The notes under the pieces: model-generated
What the model was told of the DNA's origin: nothing
Databases searched by the model: none
Seen by the model: the letters and a program-made list of their open reading frames with translations, nothing else
Assembly (NCBI RefSeq): GCF_026241755.1
Contig: NZ_JAPJDA010000003.1
Coordinates: 1 to 64,000 of the forward strand
Length of the DNA: 64,000 bases
Source of the DNA: Salinimicrobium profundisediminis
Lineage (GTDB): Bacteria > Bacteroidota > Bacteroidia > Flavobacteriales > Flavobacteriaceae
Direction: 5' to 3'
Shown here: one piece after another, positions 49,292-62,133 of the stretch
How positions within the stretch are numbered: the first letter of the stretch is position 1
Layout: every line of letters begins with the position of its first letter
Made by a program: the position numbers and the translations under genes

Positions 49292-49366
49292 GCTCCAAAA
49301 TTAACAGGTTTTAATAGACTTTTTGAATTGTGCCGCTAATTTGTGACCTTTAAGAAAAACAGAACA

Positions 49367-49879
49367 ATGAGCCGCGGATTTGTAAAAGAAGAAGACCAGG
49401 AAGAAGCACCGTTTATACCCCCAAGAGCATCTTTGCCTGCGGGAGTGACCAACTACGTGACGCCACAAGGCCACAAACAGCTCCTGGAAGAGCGGGAATC
49501 CCTCGAAAATGAGAGAAAAGGCCTTGATATAAGTAGCGATAAAGAGCGGCGCCACGCCAAAGCAGTGATTGACGGAAAATTAAACCTGCTAAACGAGCGG
49601 CTTGCTTCTGCAAGGATCCTGGAACCACAGGACCAACCAGAAAGTGAAGTGAGATTTGGTGCTACGGTCACTTTTAAGCCGCTAACAGGTCCGCTACAGG
49701 GCAAAGAGCAGGTTTTTACCGTTGTGGGAGTAGATGAAGCAGATATTAAACAGCGAAAAATAGCATTTTTGGCACCCCTTGCGCGGGCACTGACTGGAAA
49801 AAAGGTGGGCGAGAAGGCGCAGGTGCAAATGGGTGGTGCGATGCAGGAACTTGAGATTATCAACATCATTTACGCGTAA
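49367..49879 (+). CDS. greB: Transcription elongation factor, GreA/GreB family
   Basis: 170 residues from ATG 49367; an in-frame codon at 49343 lies too early. N-terminal MSRGFVKEEDQEEAPF, then YVTPQGHKQLLEERESLENERKGLDI and a coiled-coil arm, then the C-terminal FKBP-like globular domain. It rescues backtracked RNA polymerase by stimulating transcript cleavage. The last 31 codons are repeated downstream in a tandem duplication (49965-50127), which retains an open frame and stop, and an AAAAATAGCATTTTTGGCACC motif at 49757 resembles the dispersed element. Confidence 0.85.
   Translation: MSRGFVKEEDQEEAPFIPPRASLPAGVTNYVTPQGHKQLLEERESLENERKGLDISSDKERRHAKAVIDGKLNLLNERLASARILEPQDQPESEVRFGATVTFKPLTGPLQGKEQVFTVVGVDEADIKQRKIAFLAPLARALTGKKVGEKAQVQMGGAMQELEIINIIYA
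49755..49776 (+). repeat. Element-like sequence inside greB, AAAATAGCATTTTTGGCACC
   Basis: Codes for KIAFLAP. It aligns in register with the two intergenic copies at +176 and +353 bases. Confidence 0.4.
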
Positions 49880-50127
49880 ATTAAATTCTCCTCTGAAAGT
49901 TTATCCACAATTCTGGTAAAAAATCCCTTCCTAAAATGCCATTTTTGACAGCTTTTATACTTTTACTGACCGGAAAAAAAGTGGGCGAGAAGGCGCAGGG
50001 GCAAACGGGTGGTGCGATGCAGGAACTTGAGATCATCAACATCACTTATGCGTAAACTAAGTTCTCTTCAGAAAGGTTTATCCAAAACTTTGGTGAAAAT
50101 TACCTTCCTAAAATGCCATTTTTGACA
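49789..50127. repeat. Tandem duplication of the greB 3' end plus flank (offset 176-177 bases)
   Basis: Copy 1, 49789-49950, covers the last codons of greB, its stop and 71 downstream bases. Copy 2, 49965-50127, repeats these with about 85-90% identity by eye and one single-base indel near the end. The second copy keeps an open frame (LTGKKVGEKAQ ... IINITYA) with its own TAA. Each copy ends in a dispersed element. Confidence 0.85.
49929..49951 (+). repeat. Dispersed element, TTCCTAAAATGCCATTTTTG plus ACAGC
   Basis: Exact CCATTTTTGA at 49939-49948; ends duplication copy 1. Confidence 0.6.
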
Positions 50128-50158: not shown

Positions 50159-52729
50159 TTATTCGGCAGGAGAGAGGATGAATTCCAGCGTGTCTTCAAT
50201 ATCGCCGTATTCATCAACTTCGATCTCAAAGTCAATTTTGTCGGGAGCCGCTTTATAGTTGAGGGTTTCGAGCTGTTGTGCATCAATTTCAGCAGTATAT
50301 TTTCCGGGAGCAAGACCCAGGTAGCTGAAATATCCGTCACCCTCACTTAATAATTCCGCAGCTTTATTTCCGTTTGCATCGATGATGTTTATAAGTATAC
50401 GGCCCTGTCCGCGAAGGGAATTGCCGTTTTTGAAGTAGACCATACCACCAACTTCACCCATGACCTGTACCGGCACATAAATCTCTTTGAAGTGGTTGGG
50501 CTGCGTCTTCACCAGGATCTTAGGATTTGGGATCTTCCAGGCGATATTGTCGAGACTAAGAGGATCGAGTTCAATCATAAGGTCGATATAAGGCTGCAGC
50601 TCGGTGATTCGCAATACCGTTTCATCGTCGTTATAACTCACCCTGCCGCTGCGGTTTTTAAGTTCAAGCCCGGCCACTCCCGGTTCCATAGGATCTTTAA
50701 TCCCGTTTTGGTTGAAGTCGAGAAAGGGAATGATGCTCACTGCTGCACGAGACATGGCGGTACGGTTACTGGCCGCGATATAGCCGGTATTGTCATCGAG
50801 CATGAGGCTACCCCTGGCTGATTGTACGAAAGAAGAATTTCTGTTCCCTATCCGTGAAGTGGCCGAAGTTTGAGCAAAATTAAAAGCATAGCGCAAGCCT
50901 ACTTCAAAGATGTGGGCATTCCTCAAAAAATTATTTTCGTAAGCGAGGTTAAGAAAGCCTTGTTTGAACATAGGCCGTTCCAGTTCAACGATCAGGTTAT
51001 TGAACCTGTCGCGGCTAAAGTCATACTGAAGTTGGGGAGACAACAGGAACTTATAGGGCATGCGATAAGTTTGAGATAAAGAGCTGTAAATAGTAGGCTC
51101 CTTCATCCTGTCGTTATACAGGCCATAAGAGGTAAAGTTGGTGCTTACGCCAAAAACCGCTCCCGATAACAGGAGCTGTGCAGTGGTGAACTCGGTTGTT
51201 GGCATTATGATCTGGTTCACACTAAAACGACTAAACAAAGAAAAATGTTTTGTGCGAATAGGCGTAGAGAAGCTGAGTTTTCTTTCTTCCAGGTAATTGA
51301 AATTTACTGCCGTTTGATCTTCGTTGTAATTGATATAATTCAAATCTACCTGGAAGTTGCGCGGAGACTGATAGCTCAATAAAGCCTCTCCTTTTACACC
51401 ATACATATATTCTCCAGAGAACAGCAGGCCTGAAGCAATTCTTGCTGAAGAGTTGACAAACGGCATTACTTCGCCACTTTCTACTTCCGAAAGATATTCT
51501 ACCCCGCCGCCAATAGTTATGGCGTTATTTAACCCATAATTGAGGTTAAGGCGGCTAAAGCGGTTCCAGTCGTCACTTTCTACTACCCCGGCGCTAAGGG
51601 TATATTCCAGCTCATTTTTAGGTACAAAATTGTAAGGGATGTTAATCACCCGGTCTTCGGTCCTTTCTTCTCCCCACGGGCCATAAAACCGCAGACTCAC
51701 AGCGGTATTGCCATACATGAGCGGAACTTCAAAACTGTAAAACCCCGAAGCATCGGCTTCTGTAAATGATACGAGCACATTGTTTACATATAATTCAACC
51801 GTCCATCGCGGTTCAGTGTAATCACTGAGCAAATAAGTACCAAAAGACCTGCGGTTTTGAAGCGGACTATTGGTGAATTGCACCCCCGAAACCGGGGCAA
51901 AAAGGGAAGAAGTGGCCCGGCTAAAGATCCTCCCGGCGGTGACCTGAGACAGGTACTTGTTATCGGTATTTACATAGCGCCACTGGTAAAACTGGTTACG
52001 TGATGAAAACGGCAGCCTGCTGGAATAATTAAGCATAAGATTGGTTTCCCCACCAAGAAACATGGTGCCCAGCCCCAACGTAAGGCGATTGTCATTCTCA
52101 AAGTTGGTTTGCTGAGTAGTCACCACTCCCCAGTCTAAAGTACCGGGTTTAAAAAAGGGATAGCGGGCAGGGATAAGCGTATCTGGAACTACCACGCCCT
52201 TTACCCGATCAAGATTCTCTCTCATTTTTTGAAGGCGCATTTCCTTCATCACCGGTAGCTCCTTGTCTGTTTCAAGTTTTAGAGAAAGGCTTCGGAAGGA
52301 AAACTGGGTATCGAGGCCAAATATGCTTCCGAAGTAATTTGATTTGAGATACTTTACGGAAGGAGTGATCAAAACGTCATTTTTGGAGAGCCTGAAGCTC
52401 TCTCCTTTATATGTGATTTGTGGCTGCTCCCAGTTAATAGTATAGGTAGAATCGGGGTGAATGATGAATCCGCTTAGAATACCTCCATCGATTTCGTGCT
52501 TGATGTTTAGAATTTCAAACAGCGTGGTAACCGGCAAAAATGCATCTTCCCCCTTTATCGCGATAGGAATTTCATAGGTGCCCAACCTGGGAATGTTCAT
52601 TTCTACCGAAAGTTCGTCGTAATCGGGATAATCTTCTTGTGCGAATGCGGTGCCAAGGCTCAGGAATAACATGAGCGTTAGCCACAACTTCAAAACTTCA
52701 GAAAGAGAAAGACGAAAAGGAGAAAGCAT
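50159..52729 (-). CDS. Usher-like outer-membrane barrel protein of a chaperone-usher-type system
   Basis: About 856 residues from ATG 52729 (MLSPFRLSLSEVLKLWL), where a signal peptide ends near TAFAQ; the longer frame to 52807 overlaps the pilin gene. N-terminal domain about 35-160 (VEMNIPRLGTYEIPI, ILNIKHEIDGG). A barrel with many strands follows from about 190. The plug-like segment at about 330-390 (VELYVNNVLVSFTEADASG, VPLMYGNTAVSLRFYGPWG) matches the usher plug pattern, and a C-terminal domain carries FLDFNQNGIKDPMEPG and GYFSYLGLAPGKY. Probably exports and assembles DUF4402 subunits delivered by the chaperone (inference). Last gene of the locus. Confidence 0.72.
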   Translation of the reverse strand: MLSPFRLSLSEVLKLWLTLMLFLSLGTAFAQEDYPDYDELSVEMNIPRLGTYEIPIAIKGEDAFLPVTTLFEILNIKHEIDGGILSGFIIHPDSTYTINWEQPQITYKGESFRLSKNDVLITPSVKYLKSNYFGSIFGLDTQFSFRSLSLKLETDKELPVMKEMRLQKMRENLDRVKGVVVPDTLIPARYPFFKPGTLDWGVVTTQQTNFENDNRLTLGLGTMFLGGETNLMLNYSSRLPFSSRNQFYQWRYVNTDNKYLSQVTAGRIFSRATSSLFAPVSGVQFTNSPLQNRRSFGTYLLSDYTEPRWTVELYVNNVLVSFTEADASGFYSFEVPLMYGNTAVSLRFYGPWGEERTEDRVINIPYNFVPKNELEYTLSAGVVESDDWNRFSRLNLNYGLNNAITIGGGVEYLSEVESGEVMPFVNSSARIASGLLFSGEYMYGVKGEALLSYQSPRNFQVDLNYINYNEDQTAVNFNYLEERKLSFSTPIRTKHFSLFSRFSVNQIIMPTTEFTTAQLLLSGAVFGVSTNFTSYGLYNDRMKEPTIYSSLSQTYRMPYKFLLSPQLQYDFSRDRFNNLIVELERPMFKQGFLNLAYENNFLRNAHIFEVGLRYAFNFAQTSATSRIGNRNSSFVQSARGSLMLDDNTGYIAASNRTAMSRAAVSIIPFLDFNQNGIKDPMEPGVAGLELKNRSGRVSYNDDETVLRITELQPYIDLMIELDPLSLDNIAWKIPNPKILVKTQPNHFKEIYVPVQVMGEVGGMVYFKNGNSLRGQGRILINIIDANGNKAAELLSEGDGYFSYLGLAPGKYTAEIDAQQLETLNYKAAPDKIDFEIEVDEYGDIEDTLEFILSPAE

Positions 52730-52742
52730 CGTGGTTGGCTTG

Positions 52743-53246
52743 CTATTCGTGAATGAAGGTGAGGGTAAAAGTACCGTTGTAATTTCCTGCCGGGCCGGCC
52801 TCACCACTAGGGATATTCAATTTTCCGCCTACAATAACTTCGTGAGGATTGGTGGTGGTAATAAAAGTTTGGCCAGTACTGATATCAAAAAACGGATCAA
52901 TATTTAAGGTGACGTTGCTGCCCGCGGGTCCCGAAAGTAACACTTTACTTACAGGTTGAATTTGCAGAAGTGTTCCCGGATTGGCATAGACGTCAAAAAT
53001 GGCATAATGAGGGCTGCTTCCCAGATTTAGTAAATACACATCGGTATCGGCCGAACGATCGCCGTTTGGAGTGAGGATGACGTTACCACCGGCATTTCCC
53101 ACAATAAAAGACCCAAAGTTAAGCCCCTGGGCATTTCGCACCTCTACACTAACGGGAATAGGCGGATGCTCCTGGGCAGCTGCTTTGTGAAAGGGGATAA
53201 TCAGCAGGCTGAAGCAAATGAATAAGAAGAAGCTTTTTCCCGTCAT
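52743..53246 (-). CDS. DUF4402 pilin-like subunit near the usher
   Basis: 167 residues with a signal peptide ending near KAAAQ (residue 25). DUF4402 pattern: NAQGLNFGSFIVGNAGGNVILTP and the ending YNGTFTLTFIHE, the alternating C-terminal strand of pilin-like subunits. Compared with the three upstream subunits its N-terminal extension is shorter. It may be the adaptor next to the tip (inference). It starts 3 bases before the adhesin stop and ends 13 bases before the usher start. Confidence 0.78.
   Translation of the reverse strand: MTGKSFFLFICFSLLIIPFHKAAAQEHPPIPVSVEVRNAQGLNFGSFIVGNAGGNVILTPNGDRSADTDVYLLNLGSSPHYAIFDVYANPGTLLQIQPVSKVLLSGPAGSNVTLNIDPFFDISTGQTFITTTNPHEVIVGGKLNIPSGEAGPAGNYNGTFTLTFIHE
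52991..53009 (-). repeat. Dispersed element (reverse) in the DUF4402 gene, TGCCATTTTTGACGTCT
   Basis: Reverse complement of CCATTTTTGA at 52993-53002, within coding sequence. Confidence 0.45.
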
Positions 53247-53249
53247 TTT

Positions 53250-56200
53250 CTACTCTTTAAAGATTACTTTTTTGGTTTGGCTTTCTTGTTCAGTTTTGAG
53301 CGTCACCAGGTAAATTCCGGCTGCCATACCACTAAAGGTAAGCACATCTTTGCCCGAGCCTCTTTTGCTTTGAAGTACCTGGCCTGCCATGCTGCTAAGA
53401 ATCACTTTTCCTTCAGCATTATTAGGCAAATTCAGGCGTACCAATACCTGCTCATTTTTGGTGTACACGGTAAAATCTTCCATCGCAAGTTCCATTTGTA
53501 CAGGCGATAATTTTTCCGAAGAAAACATTAGCACAAACCGGTCGTTAATTTGCCCTTTTTGAGAGGTGAAAGTGTAATCGCCATCTTTCTCAAGGTCTTT
53601 TAGGACATTCTTCTTGATATCTTTCAGGTAAATATAAACAGAAGGAAAAAGATTGTTGGTTTCAGCAAGAGAAAGGCTCATCTCACCCGATCTTTCTGCT
53701 GAAATTCCCAACGGAATTTCCATAGTTTCCATAGAAGTGCCCGAAACTGCATTTATAGAAAGTTTTTCCTGAAGTGCGGTTAAGCTGTAAACACTGGGAA
53801 CATTAACGGCAGTATTCAGAAGTTTTTGGGCATCCATTTCCTTTTCAAATCCTGTGGTTGCGCCATGTCTAAAATAGATCACCGTGGCATCTGCCATTTC
53901 CTCTCCTTTAAAACCAGCCATTAATTTGATTTGAGGTACTTCAGCTTTATTTTTTGCCCTGTAATAGTTCGGTTCTGATTGATTGCCTACTCTATAAGCA
54001 TTTTTGAACTGCAAGCTTGCTGTTGCGGGATAAACGCCATTGGCAGGATCACTCACCCTCACAAAAAAGCCCTGCATTGAAGGAATGACACTAGACGAAC
54101 GCCCATCTGTAGAGATACCATCTATGTATGAAGTGTAAGTGCCGGTATACCTGTCGTCACTTCCAGCGGTAAAAAAGTGAATTGCATTGTCTATGCCGTT
54201 GAGACTGCCCACAATCAAATTCCAGTCAATAGGAGAAGGGTAGGGGTTGCCGACTAAATTAAAGCCATTGGTGTAGGTCCCATCGTTGTTTTCAAGGTCT
54301 ACAGTTACAGCTCCATTATTAACCGTTCCCGAAAGTTGCAGGGTCAAAGATACTGCATTTCCCTTCGGATTAATTGCATAGCCAAATCCGGCATTGATCA
54401 CGGAAGTAGCATCCAGATATTTCTCCCAGCCTGTAAGATCATTGCCCGAACCGTCTTGTCTATTTTCCAGGTATTGATAAAGATGTGGAAATCCGGTTGT
54501 GGCATCCTGAAGTTCGAAATTTGCAGCCAGATCTTCTACTGATGTATTTTGAAAAGGCGTACTGAAATATTTGTAACCAAAGGCATTTGAGAGGTAACGT
54601 TGCATACTCACGCTACCCGTAACAGTACCTGTACCACTACCGTCAATATATGCCGTTCCTGCTTCGTTAGAAATCAGCAGCAAGTTATTACCGGTATTAA
54701 AAATACCCTGCTCTACCTTCAAAGAATTTAGGATCCTGATGTTTGCATTGGAGGTCACACCCGCGGGATTTTTAATATTTAGATTGAGAACATTATCATT
54801 AAGAAAAGCTGCTGAAGGAATCTGCTGAGTATTAGCACCTTCAAACGAGACGCTGCCATTCTCTACGTTAAAAACTCCGGAATTTACCAGGTCTCCGGCC
54901 ATTCTTATCCAGTTACCATTGATAAATACAGAAGCCCCAGACTCAATGGTAAGTTTTCGGGCAAGTGCATTCTGCCCGGTATTTACCTTAGGGTAATTTT
55001 GGAGTCCATTGGGAATAAGGACGTCTGTCTTCAAAGTTGGTAGCGTATTACAGCTCCAGTTGGCTTTGTTGTTCCAGTTAGTATCTTCGGCACCGGTCCA
55101 CACATTTTCTTGTGACACGCTTATGGTAATTGAATGCACCTCATTATTGGTACAGCCATTGGCATCGGTGATGCTGGTTATTTTTACCGTAGTGCTTACA
55201 GTAGGAGAGAAAGGATAGGAAAGAGAAGCAGAAGGCGAGGAGACCGAAAATGCTGCTCCATTAATAGTTCCTCTTACCATCCATGGTGCTGTTCCTGAAA
55301 GTTTTCCACTCAGGTTTACTGTTTGTCCTAAACAAATGGTAGTATCTCCACTGGTTGGAGTCAATTTGGGAAGCGGGTTAACACTTACCTTTATAACATT
55401 TGAGGTACTTGCCCCACATACCCCGGAATTTACAATTCTTCTAAACCAGGTAGTTTGCGTTAGAGTTCCTGGAATGTAATTCAGGTTAGTATTTGTTCCT
55501 GATGCCTCTTCAAATCCTTCATCGGGACCTGAAATACTACTTTCCCACAAATATAAATAAGTGCCACTTCCTCCTGTAGGTTGTGAACCATGTATTTGAG
55601 AAGCAGTACTGGCTGAACAAATATTACGTGTTTCTCCTGAATAATTAATGCTATTATTAGATATACTTAAAGGTTGTGGATTAATAACAACATTTGCTGT
55701 AGCAGAAGACACACATCCACTTGAATTTGTAACGGTATAATTATAGTTACCGGGTACGAGTCCGGTTATTGTTTTATTAGTTCCCGAACCCGTAATTCCT
55801 CCCGGATTAATGATCCATGATCCTGAAGGTAAGCCGCTTAAACTTACACTGCCAGTTGCTGATGTACAGGTAGGTTGGGTAACAGATCCTACTACAGGTG
55901 CGGCAGGCGTTGCTGGTTGTGGGTTAATTACAACAGGTTCTGAAGAAAAGGAGGTGCATTTTCCGGTATCAGAAAATAATTGCGATTGTGGTACGATTTG
56001 TTCTTCCTGCCTTCTACTGGACCAGTAAAGTTGAGCTACTGCATTGCCACCCTTTTCATAGTACTCCAGAACAATATCATATTTTACACCAGCAGTAAGT
56101 CTTATTTTACCCTCATTAAAAGAGGCTGAATGATCTGTCCAATTTTCAAAGATTAATTCACCATTTACCTTTAATATGATTCCGTCATCACTTCTTGTTT

Positions 56201-57500
56201 TAAAGGTATAATTTTCGCTGTATAATGGTTGAATTTGCCCCGACCACTTTACCGAAAAATTATCGCTATTAATTGGTGAACCAGGATTCCCACTTCCCCA
56301 GTCAAAATTAACAGTAGCATCTGTACGTGTTAGAGATGGAGTACCTGAGAGATACCTATTGTTAAAATATTCTGCTTTTAAACCAGTTGTGGTTTTTGGT
56401 ACATCAACAGTGAAAGTATAATTGCCGGGGCTAAGGCCGGTAATGGTTTTGGTAGGACCCGATCCTGTAATTTCTCCAGGATTAATAGTCCAGTTTCCTG
56501 AAGGCAAACCGCTTAGGGTTACGCTACCTGTGGCTGTTGAACATGTAGGCTGAATTACAGAGGACACTATTGGTGCAGGAGGGTTAGGAGGTGTGTCAAT
56601 AGCCACATTTGCTGAAGCCGGAGAAGTACAACCAGTTTCATTGGTCACTGTAAATATATGCGTGCCGGCACTTAGTCCGGTAAAAGTTGTACTTGTACCT
56701 ATTCCGGTTTTTGTTAATCCGCCTGGTGATTCGGTTATTGTCCAGTTTCCTGAAGGTAAACCGCTCAAAGCTACACTACCTGTAGCTGATGTACAGGTGG
56801 GTTGTGTGATTTGTCCAACGGCAGGTGCAGCAGGTACTGTAGGTGGTGGATCAATAACAACATTAGCCGAAACAGAAGAGATACACCCATTAGCACTTGT
56901 AACTTTAAAAGTATGGGTGCCGGATGTAAGGCCTGTGAAAGTTGTGCTGGTACCTGTCCCTGTCTTTGTTAGCCCCCCTGGAGATTCAGTTATTGTCCAG
57001 CTTCCTGTCGACGGTAAGCCATTCAATATAACACTTCCTGTTGATGTTGTACATGTTGGTTGTGAAATGCTGCCAATGGCAGGAGATATAGGTCCGGCAT
57101 AAATAGTGAAAGGATCAGAAGCTACTGAAGGTACGTCAGGATTTGTAGATCGAACACCTATTGTATAACCTGAACCAGGAGGAAATGCAGTAGGAGGAGT
57201 AATTTTCGTACTTAAACTAATAGTCCATTCTCCAAATAAACTTGTAGTTTTATCCGATTTAAACAGGGTACTATAAACAATGGTTCCTGACTTTTGTAAC
57301 TCTATGTAATAATTAGTATTTGAATCGAAATTTCCAAAAATAATGGCTTTTGTAGCATCGAAAGTCACTTCTAATTGATTGCTACACACAGGCGAACCTG
57401 ACACAATGGGTTTACTAATGCTCTGTCCCTGCACCAAATAACTCCCCAGCATGAACAGGCATAAGAACAAAATGCGAACAGGGGGAGCCGATGTATTCAT
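53250..57500 (-). CDS. 1416-residue multidomain adhesin with PA14 domain and T9SS tail
   Basis: Signal peptide ends near VQGQ (residue 26). Four related repeats begin near 145, 228, 315 and 542 with QPTCTSATGSV..LSGLPSG. A PA14 domain (about 370-513; LKAEYFNNRYLSG, KTRSDDGIILKVNGELI, YYEKGGNAVAQLYW) is set inside repeat 3, whose missing end resumes at CTSFSSEPVV. Then an Ig-like region with many cysteines, a WTG..NWNNKANW segment near 798, and long repetitive beta regions. The last 75 residues (about 1340-1416, ending TKKVIFKE) are a type-A T9SS sorting domain. The Asp pair in SDDG of PA14 resembles the lectin site of yeast flocculins, so a glycan-binding tip role is plausible (inference). 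Confidence 0.82.
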   Translation of the reverse strand: MNTSAPPVRILFLCLFMLGSYLVQGQSISKPIVSGSPVCSNQLEVTFDATKAIIFGNFDSNTNYYIELQKSGTIVYSTLFKSDKTTSLFGEWTISLSTKITPPTAFPPGSGYTIGVRSTNPDVPSVASDPFTIYAGPISPAIGSISQPTCTTSTGSVILNGLPSTGSWTITESPGGLTKTGTGTSTTFTGLTSGTHTFKVTSANGCISSVSANVVIDPPPTVPAAPAVGQITQPTCTSATGSVALSGLPSGNWTITESPGGLTKTGIGTSTTFTGLSAGTHIFTVTNETGCTSPASANVAIDTPPNPPAPIVSSVIQPTCSTATGSVTLSGLPSGNWTINPGEITGSGPTKTITGLSPGNYTFTVDVPKTTTGLKAEYFNNRYLSGTPSLTRTDATVNFDWGSGNPGSPINSDNFSVKWSGQIQPLYSENYTFKTRSDDGIILKVNGELIFENWTDHSASFNEGKIRLTAGVKYDIVLEYYEKGGNAVAQLYWSSRRQEEQIVPQSQLFSDTGKCTSFSSEPVVINPQPATPAAPVVGSVTQPTCTSATGSVSLSGLPSGSWIINPGGITGSGTNKTITGLVPGNYNYTVTNSSGCVSSATANVVINPQPLSISNNSINYSGETRNICSASTASQIHGSQPTGGSGTYLYLWESSISGPDEGFEEASGTNTNLNYIPGTLTQTTWFRRIVNSGVCGASTSNVIKVSVNPLPKLTPTSGDTTICLGQTVNLSGKLSGTAPWMVRGTINGAAFSVSSPSASLSYPFSPTVSTTVKITSITDANGCTNNEVHSITISVSQENVWTGAEDTNWNNKANWSCNTLPTLKTDVLIPNGLQNYPKVNTGQNALARKLTIESGASVFINGNWIRMAGDLVNSGVFNVENGSVSFEGANTQQIPSAAFLNDNVLNLNIKNPAGVTSNANIRILNSLKVEQGIFNTGNNLLLISNEAGTAYIDGSGTGTVTGSVSMQRYLSNAFGYKYFSTPFQNTSVEDLAANFELQDATTGFPHLYQYLENRQDGSGNDLTGWEKYLDATSVINAGFGYAINPKGNAVSLTLQLSGTVNNGAVTVDLENNDGTYTNGFNLVGNPYPSPIDWNLIVGSLNGIDNAIHFFTAGSDDRYTGTYTSYIDGISTDGRSSSVIPSMQGFFVRVSDPANGVYPATASLQFKNAYRVGNQSEPNYYRAKNKAEVPQIKLMAGFKGEEMADATVIYFRHGATTGFEKEMDAQKLLNTAVNVPSVYSLTALQEKLSINAVSGTSMETMEIPLGISAERSGEMSLSLAETNNLFPSVYIYLKDIKKNVLKDLEKDGDYTFTSQKGQINDRFVLMFSSEKLSPVQMELAMEDFTVYTKNEQVLVRLNLPNNAEGKVILSSMAGQVLQSKRGSGKDVLTFSGMAAGIYLVTLKTEQESQTKKVIFKE

Positions 57501-57544
57501 TATAGCAGAGAAAAATTTTATTTTACAGGAGTATCAAAGTTATT

Positions 57545-58360
57545 TTACAGCTCATATTCCTTTTTTGCGAGCGCTTTCCCATCTTCTTCAAAATAGGAAA
57601 CTTCCAGTTTTCCCTGGCTCAAATCAACTTCTCCTGCATTTCGTAATTCAAAAGAAAAGTTCCTTTTAGCGTTGGGCGTATAGACAGAGACGCCTTTTAC
57701 CATTCCTATCTCTGTAGCCTTTCCTTTTAAGGAAACATGATCTACTTTAATATTGCCGTAAACCGACATATTTCCGCTGCGGTTTAATACCAATGATAGC
57801 TGTGGAGTTTCAGCGTCTTTTTCGAATTGAATATTAGTTATATCCAGTTGAGTGGTAGATTCTCCCTGCTGAATTATAATAGGAATACTAATTCCAAAGA
57901 CGGTTTTGATATTAATGGAAATCCCTTCGCTTTCTGCATCTTCTTCTGTTCCCAGGGCAGTTTGTTCTTCTACAGCTCTAAAATACATGTGAGAACGATA
58001 TTCTCCCTGTTCCAGGTTTCCGGTGCGGGTGAGCTGCACTCGTATGGTTTGGGCTTCGTTGGGAGCTAAAGTGATTTGTCGTGGAAAGTACCTGAGAAAA
58101 CCTTCAGCAAAACGCTGACCTTCCATAGGTGTTTCCACCTGCTCAAAGCTACCACTTTCAGTCATGTTGTAGTTAACGAAAGAAACTGCATAAACAGCAG
58201 TATCACTTCCCGTATTCGCAAGATTGATCTCCTGAGATCTTTGAGACCCGTCAAAAACCAGCCTTTTAGGCATGATCATTAGATCTCCCTGTGCAAAAAA
58301 GTTTTGAGGAAGTAAAAAAAGAGAAAGTAGGAGTAAAGTTGAATGTAATTTTATCTTCAT
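57545..58360 (-). CDS. PapD-like periplasmic pilus chaperone
   Basis: 271 residues with a signal peptide ending near FFAQ (residue 24). Two Ig-like domains: the N-terminal half (LMIMPKRLVFDGSQRSQEINLANTGSD) shows the strand pattern of pilus chaperones, with RYFPRQITLAPNEAQTIRVQL (G1-like strand); the second half continues with GISIPIIIQ. It probably stabilises DUF4402 subunits in the periplasm and hands them to the usher. Gene order (subunits, chaperone, adhesin, subunit, usher) supports that role. The adhesin starts 44 bases downstream. Confidence 0.78.
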   Translation of the reverse strand: MKIKLHSTLLLLSLFLLPQNFFAQGDLMIMPKRLVFDGSQRSQEINLANTGSDTAVYAVSFVNYNMTESGSFEQVETPMEGQRFAEGFLRYFPRQITLAPNEAQTIRVQLTRTGNLEQGEYRSHMYFRAVEEQTALGTEEDAESEGISINIKTVFGISIPIIIQQGESTTQLDITNIQFEKDAETPQLSLVLNRSGNMSVYGNIKVDHVSLKGKATEIGMVKGVSVYTPNAKRNFSFELRNAGEVDLSQGKLEVSYFEEDGKALAKKEYEL

Positions 58361-58440
58361 GCGGGTGGAATTTTGTTGAAAAATTTTACCTGCAACAAAT
58401 GTAAGTAAAAGGAGACAAGAAAGTTAAGGAATCCCTAAAA

Positions 58441-58935
58441 TTAATTATAGGAAACCGTTACATTAAACCCGGAGGAGTTGGTATAGAAACCGGATGCCTG
58501 ATTGGCCTCTAGATGCAAGGTTGCTCCAATTTTTATAACGTCCGAAATTGTGCCTTCATCAGGTAGAACCACAAAGTTGCTAATGGAGAGTTGCTGATCG
58601 GGGTTTTGGCTGTTATATAAGATAAAAGATTCAGGTAGTGTAATAGCGTAATTGTTATTACCATGGGTAACCACTGCCTCTGCCGGATTTACAGTACCGG
58701 GAAAATTGCTCGATATCTGCACTCCCTGAGCCGTTCTTGAACCATCGGGAGATAAAACAACACTTCCGGGGGTGTAGGCGCTTACTACATTTCCAAAATC
58801 AAGATCTACAGTCTTGTCGATTTGGATAGGATCAATAACCGTAGCCCTGCTCGTGACTTTCGCAGAAGCCGATGCCTGACTAAAAGCCTGGGAAGACAAC
58901 AGTAAAAGAAATAATATAAAAACTATTCTGTTCAT
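58441..58935 (-). CDS. DUF4402 pilin-like subunit
   Basis: About 164 residues from ATG 58935 (MNRIVFILFLLLL, signal peptide to FSQ); upstream in-frame codons up to 59001 lie inside a terminator hairpin. Mature N-terminus ASASAKVTSRATVIDPIQI alternates like a donor strand; DLDFGNVVS, GTVNPAE and the ending GFNVTVSYN match DUF4402. The chaperone gene follows 80 bases downstream. Confidence 0.8.
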   Translation of the reverse strand: MNRIVFILFLLLLSSQAFSQASASAKVTSRATVIDPIQIDKTVDLDFGNVVSAYTPGSVVLSPDGSRTAQGVQISSNFPGTVNPAEAVVTHGNNNYAITLPESFILYNSQNPDQQLSISNFVVLPDEGTISDVIKIGATLHLEANQASGFYTNSSGFNVTVSYN

Positions 58936-58986
58936 TTGTGTCTGTAAAAGCAGATACTTTGTTATTAACCTTATCCTTATAATGAA

Positions 58987-59014
58987 AAAACGCCGCCACA
59001 AGGGCGGCGTTTTT
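58987..59014 (-). terminator. Hairpin between two pilin genes (AACGCCGCC/GGCGGCGTT)
   Basis: A 9- to 10-bp GC-rich stem with a 5-base loop, 23 bases after the stop of the subunit gene at 59037; on the minus strand T's follow. The next subunit gene starts 52 bases further, so some read-through is expected. Confidence 0.8.
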
Positions 59015-59036
59015 ATAAACTATATATGTTGTTGTC

Positions 59037-59528
59037 TTATTCGTAAGCTACGGTAACTTCAACTGTTCCAGTATAATCTCCTTCAGCCTGGCTAGAATTT
59101 ACAGTTATTTCACCTCCAACATTCAATGTTTGATCTGCTCCGCTTCCCTGAACATTAGTGTTACCTAAGCTACTAGTGAATTCCACTGGCATTTCATCTC
59201 CAGCTCCAGTCAATTTAATTGAAGGAATGGTGATTTTATAATTGTAACCATTTGCAGCTTTTACTGTAAAAGAAGCTGCCTGAACATCTGTACTAGGAGC
59301 TAAAAGCTCATCATTACTTGCTGTTCTTTCATTATCTGCTGCAACAGTCACTGTACCTCCAGCTGTATTTCCAATAATTCGTCCAAAATTTAAGTCAGTT
59401 CCATCAGTGATGGAAATAGGACTAACTATCTCAGCATTAACTGTCGCAGTTCCACTATCAGTAGCTGCATTTTGAGCGAAAGTAGTTCCAGTAATAAGAG
59501 CGAATAAAATAAAAGTAATTTTTTTCAT
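59037..59528 (-). CDS. DUF4402 pilin-like subunit, candidate major subunit
   Basis: 163 residues from ATG 59528 (MKKITFILFALITG, signal peptide to FAQ); the 15 codons upstream of it add a basic leader and are not needed. Pattern: ATVNAEIVSPISITDGTDLNFG and ending GTVEVTVAYE. It has its own hairpin immediately after the stop, as in many abundant subunit genes (inference of major-subunit role). Cells would export it by Sec and pass it to the chaperone. Confidence 0.82.
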   Translation of the reverse strand: MKKITFILFALITGTTFAQNAATDSGTATVNAEIVSPISITDGTDLNFGRIIGNTAGGTVTVAADNERTASNDELLAPSTDVQAASFTVKAANGYNYKITIPSIKLTGAGDEMPVEFTSSLGNTNVQGSGADQTLNVGGEITVNSSQAEGDYTGTVEVTVAYE

Positions 59529-59812
59529 GATGTAGGTTTTTTTGGGTATTATAAATTTAATTTGGGGTTTCATTTATTTAACGATGCAAACGTACACCCT
59601 AAAGAAAGCTCCTACAAAAAAACTCGATGACAGCGACAGAAACTCGTTGAAATACACTTAATATGATCCTGATCATGTTTAAGATTTAAAGCTTCAAAGC
59701 GTCTGTTTAGCGGCTTAAAACACTTTATTATTCTGAAAATCAGAAAATTAATAAGTGTTTTCCACAAAATTTGATATATGAGTTGTATTTGGATGTTTTA
59801 GCCCAAATCTGT

Positions 59813-60013
59813 TTAAAGTTGATTTGCGTAGGTCACATCAATTACCACCTGGACCAGAATTACAGTCACTACTATTATAATGGTATAAAAAACTGTTCTG
59901 GCAATGTTCCCGATCGATTGTTTGGATAAATGTTTCACTTTTGGATAGATATACTTAATAATCTCTTTTTCTTTTGACGCAATAGCATAGTTGATCAAGC
60001 CAAACCGGCTCAA
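59813..60013 (-). CDS. Doubtful 66-residue membrane protein
   Basis: Frame from TTG 60013 with one hydrophobic helix (FYTIIIVVTVILVQVVIDV) near the C-terminus and a basic amphipathic first half. It has no ATG start and no homology I can name. It could encode a small membrane protein or be chance. It lies just downstream of the direct and inverted repeats at 60021-60072, which would then be its control region. Confidence 0.35.
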   Translation of the reverse strand: MSRFGLINYAIASKEKEIIKYIYPKVKHLSKQSIGNIARTVFYTIIIVVTVILVQVVIDVTYANQL

Positions 60014-60020
60014 TCTATGT

Positions 60021-60072
60021 GTAGGGATTATGTAAGTAGGGATTGTGATCTATATACAATAACTATAGATCA
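60021..60072. promoter_or_regulatory. Direct and inverted repeats, candidate regulator site
   Basis: GTAGGGATTATG (60021-60032) is repeated as GTAGGGATTGTG (60036-60047), 15 bases apart. Directly after, TGATCTATA (60046-60054) and TATAGATCA (60064-60072) form a perfect 9-bp inverted repeat. This sits upstream of the putative pilin promoter. Confidence 0.55.
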
Positions 60073-60205
60073 ATACAAAGATGCAGTAAATTGGAGAGCT
60101 ATAAAAGAATAATCGGTAGTTGGATAGAATACTCGTTCAACTACGCAACTAAAATATTCCTGGGAAAATTCCTCCTTCATTAGTTAGCAGGCGAGAAAAA
60201 AAAGA

Positions 60206-60703
60206 TTAATTGTAGTTTACAGTAACGTTCATAGGAGCCTTACTGTTGTAAACTCCCGGAGTTTGATGAGGATTAACAGCCAGGGTAGCACCCACGGTTA
60301 TCCTCTTAGCTCCTCCATCAAAATTTCCATTTTGAGCTAAACTACTTGTAAAGTCTTTAATGATCATACTTTCTGTACCGTTGGCCAGTACATATTCACC
60401 TTCAGGCAGGGTGAGAGAAAAAGCAAAACCGTCTTCTCCTGTCACTTCAAAAGCAGCAGCAGAGACATTGGCTTCACTGTCTAATGAAACATTTCCAGAG
60501 GTGAGCCTGGTGCTATTGGGCGTAAGGATTACTTCTCCTCCGGTACCGGCATCAAGGTTTGCAAAATTCATGTGTGATGTAGTAGTGATTCCAATAGGCT
60601 GGATAATCGTTGCCGAAGCAGTAAATGAGGCAGACGCACTGGCCTGGCCAAATGCTAATGCCCCAAAAAGGGAAAATAATATGAAACTAAATAAACTTTT
60701 CAC
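60206..60703 (-). CDS. DUF4402 pilin-like subunit, first of the locus
   Basis: 165 residues, signal peptide to LAFGQ (residue 20). Mature start ASASASFTASATIIQPIGI; HMNFANLDAGTGGEVILTP; ending SKAPMNVTVNYN. It is close in layout to the subunits at 59037 and 58441. Separated from them by 677 bases, so it may form its own transcript. It may be an alternative subunit or the tip-distal base. Confidence 0.8.
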   Translation of the reverse strand: MKSLFSFILFSLFGALAFGQASASASFTASATIIQPIGITTTSHMNFANLDAGTGGEVILTPNSTRLTSGNVSLDSEANVSAAAFEVTGEDGFAFSLTLPEGEYVLANGTESMIIKDFTSSLAQNGNFDGGAKRITVGATLAVNPHQTPGVYNSKAPMNVTVNYN

Positions 60704-61272: not shown

Positions 61273-62133
61273 TTAGTTGTTGGAAGAATCTACCGGCTGT
61301 GCAGGGGATTGTTCTGAATCTAAAAGTGCAAGGAATTTATCAAGGTTTGGCAGGATAACAATTCTTGTTCTTCTATTTAATGCCCTGTCTTCTTTGGTCT
61401 CGTTTCCGGCTACCGGTTTGTAGCTACTGCGGCCTGCAGCAATTAACTTTTCGGGCTCTACATTAAAACGGTCCTGCAATACTCTCACGATCGCAGTAGC
61501 ACGTCTTACACTCAATTCCCAGTTATCCTGAATGTAGGAATTTTCCACCATTGTTTGAGAATCTGTGTGACCCTCTACCATTACTTCCATAGCTGGTTCA
61601 GATTTAATTACTTCAGCAAGCTTCTCTAAAAGGGGATATGCATCTCTGCTTACTCTGTGACTCCCGCTTCTAAAAAGTAATTTATCAGATACATTGATCA
61701 TCACTACAGTTTTGTCTACAGTAATGTCAACATCGTCTGAGCTTCCACTGCTTATCTGGCTTTCCAGGTTATGAGCTACGGCCAGGTTAATAGAATCTTC
61801 TAAAGTTTCGGCTCCGGCAAGTTTTTCGGGATCAACATTTCTTAAGGTTTCCCGCATTTTACGCTTATTGGCATTAGACATTGCCGTAAGCTGGTTCATT
61901 TCCAGTTTCTGGTCATTCTCTTCTGTGAGTGAGTTGATCTTTGAATTGTAATCTGCCACTCTTTCTTCTATGGCATTTAATCGTTCTTCAAGTCTTTCTT
62001 TTTCTACCTGAGTTTCCTGAAGATTACTTCGGGTGTTGTTATAATCTTCCTCAAGGGCTACATACTTCTTTTTTGAAACACAAGAAGTCAGCACTGTCGC
62101 TGCAAGTACCGTTACGGTAAGAGCTTTTTTCAT
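61273..62133 (-). CDS. OmpA-family peptidoglycan-binding lipoprotein
   Basis: 286 residues. Lipobox (VLTSCVSKKK) gives a lipid anchor at Cys17. A coiled-coil stretch (about 25-75, LQETQVEKERLEERLNAIEER) is followed by an OmpA-like C-terminal domain (LLFRSGSHRVSRDAYPLLEKL ... VEGHTDSQTM ... NWELSVRRATAIVRVL ... GRSSYKPVAGNETKEDRALNRRTRI), with the Asp and Arg that bind diaminopimelate. It ties the outer membrane to peptidoglycan. Divergent from the TamB-like gene. Confidence 0.9.
   Translation of the reverse strand: MKKALTVTVLAATVLTSCVSKKKYVALEEDYNNTRSNLQETQVEKERLEERLNAIEERVADYNSKINSLTEENDQKLEMNQLTAMSNANKRKMRETLRNVDPEKLAGAETLEDSINLAVAHNLESQISSGSSDDVDITVDKTVVMINVSDKLLFRSGSHRVSRDAYPLLEKLAEVIKSEPAMEVMVEGHTDSQTMVENSYIQDNWELSVRRATAIVRVLQDRFNVEPEKLIAAGRSSYKPVAGNETKEDRALNRRTRIVILPNLDKFLALLDSEQSPAQPVDSSNN

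Follow-up and report, generated by a model that had tools for sequence, protein, structure and literature searches.

The 64,000-nucleotide stretch analysed here (the window), positions 1 to 64,000 of contig NZ_JAPJDA010000003.1 of Salinimicrobium profundisediminis, carries a locus of seven genes, all on the minus strand, which read leftward encode three DUF4402 subunits, a periplasmic chaperone, a large secreted protein (T), a fourth DUF4402 subunit and an outer-membrane barrel. This locus is very probably a Bacteroidota variant of a chaperone-usher fibre operon into which a surface protein exported by the type IX secretion system (T9SS) has been built. Kinship of the barrel with ushers, of the chaperone with PapD-like chaperones and, more weakly, of the subunits with pilins is supported by computation, as are the T9SS sorting domain of T and the conserved gene order. 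The chaperone-usher route has been studied mostly in Proteobacteria. A fibre locus of this kind had been proposed for the window from its letters alone (the original prediction); its seven genes, their span and their order are confirmed, the subunit endings and barrel motifs it quoted are present in the sequences, and the frames of all four DUF4402 subunits lie above the Pfam cut-off (E 1e-18 to 3e-25). The 4.0 Mb genome holds no DUF4402 match beyond these four at E 0.01.

Kinship of the usher-like barrel, chaperone and subunits

The identification of the barrel is carried by structure comparison. An AlphaFold model built from 75 sequences, with a mean predicted local distance difference test score (pLDDT) of 86, was compared with the PDB by Foldseek, and ranks 1-18 are all FimD or PapC (E 8e-26 to 1e-13), the next row standing at 8e-10. 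VIA-align places the model on the FimD pore with a Z of 23.4 and a root-mean-square deviation of 3.9 over 360 residues; fifteen usher rows have Z values from 19 to 23, and those of full length span model residues of about 157-825. Outside the ushers the highest values are 17.2 (LptD) and 16.2. Profile alignment by hhalign with five ushers of Escherichia coli K-12 yields a score of 72.1 (probability 93.9%). None of 100 column shuffles exceeds 24.4, and the reversed alignment and the wrong-family control score 22.8 and 18.4. In our reading of this alignment, the stretch from plug to barrel appears to lie in register with the E. coli ushers. The structure match and the controlled alignment together mark the protein as an usher with barrel, plug and C-terminal domains, and the usher-like barrel of the original prediction stands on both, despite the lack of a Pfam match. 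Its nearest named relatives, with up to 85% identity, belong to Salinimicrobium (Flavobacteriaceae), among which the window barrel groups in the tree. In other families of the Bacteroidota there are usher relatives with SPOR (peptidoglycan-binding) or TPR domains at the C-terminus (L146:2721-6233, L155:3599-6994, L150:6065-9880), which perhaps anchor the usher to the wall.

As far as the available part of PMC4654587 describes them, one proline is invariant across the whole chaperone superfamily, and archaic and alternative chaperones are distinguished by an arginine to which the subunit C-terminus is anchored (Pro60 and Arg89 in EcpB). Archaic chaperones have nothing analogous to the two basic residues that serve as anchors in classical ones (PMC4654587). 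Pro93 and Arg122 are present in 34 of 34 chaperones of the family studied here, at a spacing of 29 that equals that of Pro60 and Arg89; the correspondence was placed by local profile alignment together with motif and spacing and is our judgement. A further invariant residue, Arg33, is aligned with the FimC arginine at the classical anchor place, and the classical anchor lysine aligns with an invariant Gly156. Being invariant and so aligned, Arg33 cuts across a non-classical label, and the pattern of Arg122 with Arg33 and Gly156 describes a PapD-like chaperone with one classical and one non-classical mark. Arg194, Tyr201 and Tyr227 are invariant in an unsure register, and counterparts of the other two archaic anchor residues, Arg174 and Tyr196 in CsuC, could not be placed. 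Aligned with seven E. coli K-12 chaperones, the chaperone profile scores 52.6 in hhalign (92.2%), with 100 shuffles at or below 22.5; global mode against EcpB, EcpE and FimC singly gives no usable alignment (probability at most 0.4%). With an E of 0.1 or lower, PapD_N is matched by 30 of the 34, and the match is above cut-off in L046 and L153. The invariant residues, the alignment score and these matches support a PapD-like reading of the two-domain periplasmic chaperone that had been predicted.

In the structure predicted for subunit 2 from 88 sequences, with a mean pLDDT of 94, residues 1-20 are not part of a strand. Of its best 50 Foldseek rows, 48 are chaperone-usher entries; against CsuA/B the model reaches a VIA-align Z of 7.3 at 23% identity. 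A penultimate tyrosine or phenylalanine is a feature of chaperone-usher pilins, and among 124 upstream DUF4402 proteins (those not adjacent to the usher) the penultimate residue is tyrosine in 115 and phenylalanine in 7, together 122/124. From the mature start to the first core motif the median distance is 28 in upstream subunits (104 of 120 readable) and 20 in usher-adjacent ones (63 of 80 readable), and the penultimate residue of the usher-adjacent subunit in T-bearing loci is glutamine or histidine in 56 of 64. The pilin-like character claimed for the DUF4402 subunits is supported, including a free N-terminal extension, though by its scores the fold match is weak.

Against these kinships stand several results. 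The Pfam Usher model (PF00577) does not match the window barrel even at E 1, matches only three of 35 barrel relatives, weakly (best 4e-4), and a search of PDB sequences with the barrel profile brings up no usher, only SdrD, NOMO and a biofilm surface protein. Structural matches barely cover the N-terminal domain, with which ushers recruit chaperone-subunit pairs, though the domain is present; TcfC is matched weakly in 2 of the 35 relatives and Cu_amine_oxidN1 in 7. For the window chaperone the PapD_N match falls below cut-off (E 1e-3), the chaperone profile retrieves no solved chaperone from PDB sequences, and fn3_5, an Ig-like family unrelated to pili, matches 33 of the 34 chaperones, as often as PapD_N does. 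The best Foldseek match of subunit 2 to a pilin has an E of 2e-3, with no row below 1e-3, its VIA-align Z of 7.4 with the pilin domain of PapG lies under the tool's caution line of 8, and the DUF4402 profile retrieves no pilin from PDB sequences. Taken alone, the predicted fold of the DUF4402 subunits is thus suggestive of pilins and not decisive.

Chaperone and subunits without the barrel, the case that the original prediction had named as speaking against it, are all but absent among 296 Bacteroidota genomes. A barrel relative is found in 77 of these by profile and in 61 by single sequence, the chaperone in 54 and DUF4402 in 47; by profile the barrel accompanies the chaperone in 53/54 genomes and DUF4402 in 47/47, by single sequence in 51/54 and 46/47. 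At the thresholds used, the barrel lacks a chaperone in 24 of the 77 genomes or 10 of the 61, and some of the 77 are matched in the carboxypeptidase-like C-terminal part alone and do not necessarily hold an usher. The Pfam Usher model is above cut-off in 0 of the 296, with a positive E. coli control.

We infer that the locus forms a fibre by donor-strand exchange, with distinct tip and shaft subunits and an adhesive role for T. All seven proteins would reach the periplasm by their signal peptides, where the PapD-like chaperone would cap the DUF4402 pilins and pass them to the usher-like barrel, which would thread them out. In subunits 1-3 the N-terminal tail would fill the groove of the preceding subunit; subunit 4, which lies next to the usher gene and lacks a donor tail, could only start a fibre, as its first, distal subunit. 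Subunit 2 is probably the shaft, because a terminator-like hairpin follows its gene. Of 30 Flavobacteriaceae loci that have three upstream subunits, the window among them, 21 show such a hairpin in the gap between subunits 2 and 3; the same pattern was not found in the other two gaps of those 30 loci. The hairpin would yield subunit 2 in excess over the other products, as suits a shaft. In a search for phase variation no pair of invertible promoter-like repeats was conspicuous, and sigma-70-like sites occur at shuffled level.

Two other readings of the locus dispense with such a fibre. The barrel could be an usher-derived secretion pore that exports or displays DUF4402 proteins singly or as short chains, with no long fibre; the upstream subunits of the window are unlike in sequence, the N-terminus of the usher-adjacent subunit is short and has no donor tail, and a Bacteroidales clade retains one subunit only beside its usher. 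Such a pore is nevertheless improbable, given the free N-terminal tail and penultimate-tyrosine C-terminus of almost all upstream subunits and the conserved terminator, which points to an excess of subunit 2. Fibres of Bacteroidota are usually of the FimA/Mfa type (type V); a pilus of that kind can be set aside almost entirely here: no subunit matches FimA/Mfa in Pfam or NCBIfam at E 1, the signal peptides are ordinary and without a lipobox by eye, and both a chaperone and an usher are present.

Protein T and the type IX secretion system

T contains a PA14 domain (E 1e-33) and ends in a T9SS type A sorting domain (TIGR04183, 37.2 bits against a cut-off of 23), which recurs in all 50 of the T C-termini scanned, out of 65 in hand. 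Complete T frames range from 570 to 2737 residues, some cut ones exceed 3,100, and the C-terminal part is conserved; a variable front joined to a constant back is as expected of an adhesin. Because its C-terminus is a T9SS sorting domain, T most likely leaves the cell by the T9SS and not by the usher, and would cross the outer membrane through SprA. The sorting domain is also the reason why T was dropped as a candidate cargo of the barrel. The original prediction, which counted the giant adhesin among the products of the chaperone-usher route, is not supported on this point: T bears the sorting domain, SprA is encoded in the genome, and the T gene is missing from relatives that keep the rest.

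The position of T was surveyed in 81 loci, namely the window and the best 80 of 300 relatives found with one barrel peptide pattern, a choice that favours near relatives. In 64 of them, T immediately precedes the usher-adjacent subunit. Since 20 of these T genes run off the fetched stretch, the place of the chaperone could be checked in 44, and it lies at most 400 bp before T in 41, with L087, L112 and L126 as exceptions. In the first of these, from Chitinophaga sp. CF118, a second T, subunit and chaperone stand downstream of the usher. Of the 17 loci without T, twelve make up a single Bacteroidales clade in which one subunit and the usher stand by themselves (L080, L084, L088, L102 and relatives), and whose chaperone lies elsewhere in the genome in 10/12 (11/13 searched, with L107 included); the contigs of L107 and L109 start with the tip gene and so cannot show T; and L063, L075 and L111 retain subunits, chaperone and usher.

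SprA is above cut-off in the host genome, and each of the 17 other T-bearing genomes tested has it as well. Where the system is present and no T was seen alongside, as judged for part of the loci within the 8 to 16 kb fetched, 13 of 25 genomes have SprA and 12 lack it; the latter comprise nine genomes from the Bacteroidales clade and three from family f17. The test covered nine of the twelve T-less genomes of that clade, all nine without SprA, together with L107; G111 and L073, which give the same place and score and look like one assembly, were counted once. The difference, 18/18 against 13/25, has a Fisher p of 4e-4 with kinship ignored. T goes with the T9SS, but the T9SS does not bring T.

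A second feature goes with T. Near the start of the usher-adjacent subunit, a PPxP-like motif is found in 61 of the 64 loci with T and 3 of the 17 without, kinship again ignored, and in only 2 of 124 other DUF4402 proteins. The three motif-positive loci without T are L107 and L109, which cannot show it, and L063, where the stretch reads PPDT. Two SprA-bearing operons without T, L157 and L160, have a short usher-adjacent N-terminus from which the motif is absent. Mapped on the usher tree, T has four changes and the motif has five. There are two supported independent pairs, in which the motif goes the same way as T under most pairings and in one of two under a few, too few for significance. This tree includes L157 and L160, whose placement on long branches is unsure, and omits L107, L109 and L095, the last of which has an ambiguous residue. 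The motif pattern used with it was a changed one, which takes L096 and L125 and drops L127 (PPPNT) and L063.

The association of motif and T is the ground for a docking reading, by which T, delivered by the T9SS, would dock as a tip adhesin on the proline-rich peptide that the first subunit of the usher-built fibre, lacking a donor strand, would expose on the outside of the cell, the two outer-membrane machines thus contributing to one pilus, and loss of the T9SS or of T would go with loss of that peptide. This reading is tentative and on the doubtful side. That T is instead a plain T9SS surface protein, merely co-transcribed and without a physical link to the fibre, is a fairly probable account. 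T is missing from L063, L075, L111, L157 and L160, which keep the chaperone, the usher-adjacent subunit and the usher; in ten loci from other classes no T was found next to the system; and T9SS substrates normally anchor by themselves. This account must contend with the proline-rich N-terminus that goes with T, for which the tree contrasts mostly agree without being significant, and with the T C-terminal region, which has no second copy in the host genome at E 1e-3. Stretches similar to this region occur in other T9SS proteins.

Gene layout and spread of the module

The features of the locus are collected in Table 1. DUF4402 matches were counted on the frames 60206-60703, 59037-59573, 58441-59001 and 52743-53246. 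In our reading of the signal peptides, better starts would be 59528 for subunit 2, 58935 for subunit 3 and, for the barrel, the ATG at 52729 over the GTG at 52807. Gaps of 44 bp (chaperone to T), 3 bp (T to fourth subunit) and 13 bp (fourth subunit to barrel) separate the leftward genes.

Table 1. Features of the seven-gene locus, in leftward order
Feature	Position	Strand	Remarks
DUF4402 pilin-like subunit 1	60206..60703	-	signal peptide; ends VTVNYN; DUF4402 E 2.6e-21
DUF4402 pilin-like subunit 2	59037..59528	-	ends VTVAYE; DUF4402 E 2.5e-25; structure predicted; likely major subunit
Intrinsic-terminator-like hairpin	58986..59014	-	gap between subunits 2 and 3; perfect 12-bp arms, T tail
DUF4402 pilin-like subunit 3	58441..58935	-	ends VTVSYN; DUF4402 E 1.2e-19
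PapD-like periplasmic chaperone	57545..58360	-	invariant Pro93, Arg122, Arg33
Large secreted protein T, 1416 aa	53250..57500	-	repeats and PA14; C-terminal region conserved, with a type A sorting domain of the T9SS
DUF4402 subunit 4, 'tip' type	52743..53246	-	short proline-rich N-terminus (QEHPPIP), penultimate His
Outer-membrane usher-like barrel, 856 aa	50159..52729	-	plug and C-terminal domains

Just downstream of the usher gene lies a direct repeat of 146 nt (49757-49902 and 49933-50078, 83% identical), which is the duplicated 3' part of the gene at 49343-49879 plus some bases beyond. At the other end, an OmpA-domain gene (61273-62133) adjoins the operon, and a very similar frame stands in the same neighbourhood of L075.

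The distribution of the system is patchy, a barrel at E 1e-5 being found in 6 of 149 sampled genomes of the family, the host included. Outside Bacteroidota, plasmids of Polaromonas and Sphingopyxis (L045, L046, L047) are annotated with the order DUF4402, chaperone and a 'carboxypeptidase-like' protein, which is the barrel relative; no T was found beside these operons. IS6-type transposases lie near two of the three, and the DUF4402-chaperone-usher module may be mobile. A barrel match was also seen on a Novosphingobium plasmid.

Comparison with known fibre systems

Chaperone-usher-like systems appear to be common in Bacteroidota and to escape the Pfam usher model, which passes its cut-off in none of the genomes surveyed where 61 to 77 hold a barrel relative. 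DUF4402 thereby gains a reading at the level of function, and if T does dock on the fibre, two export machines of the outer membrane would together be building a single surface organelle. Among the open-licence papers listed, judged by titles and the starts of abstracts, no description of chaperone-usher pili in Bacteroidota was found, nor was a paper on DUF4402 among open-licence papers. The available part of one survey leaves the chaperone-usher route out (PMC4793230).

With the archaic and alternative chaperone-usher pili (Csu, ECP) the locus shares the usher fold, the proline of the chaperone as a general mark and its strand-F arginine as a non-classical one (PMC4654587), the order of subunits, chaperone and usher and, by a weak match, the pilin fold. 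It differs from them in an usher outside the Pfam Usher model, a single-domain tip-like subunit, a T9SS protein inside the operon and a host among the Bacteroidota. Its chaperone also has the extra invariant Arg33, aligned with the classical anchor arginine of FimC, which archaic chaperones lack according to the part of the source available (PMC4654587). The classical type 1 and P pili resemble it in other ways: barrel, plug and C-terminal domains superpose on those of FimD and PapC, Arg33 aligns with the anchor arginine, and shaft subunits have a penultimate tyrosine, as in the classical rule. Identity to these systems, however, is about 10-12%, Gly156 takes the place of the anchor lysine, the non-classical Arg122 is extra, and there is no two-domain adhesin.

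The Polaromonas and Sphingopyxis plasmid operons are built from the same three families in the same order; they differ in that no T was found with them, that they belong to Proteobacteria and that their barrel is not annotated as an usher, one of their chaperones being named 'fimbria/pilus periplasmic chaperone'. With T9SS type A cargo adhesins, finally, T shares its TIGR04183 ending and a genome that encodes SprA, whereas its gene lies inside a chaperone-usher operon and is accompanied by a special subunit.

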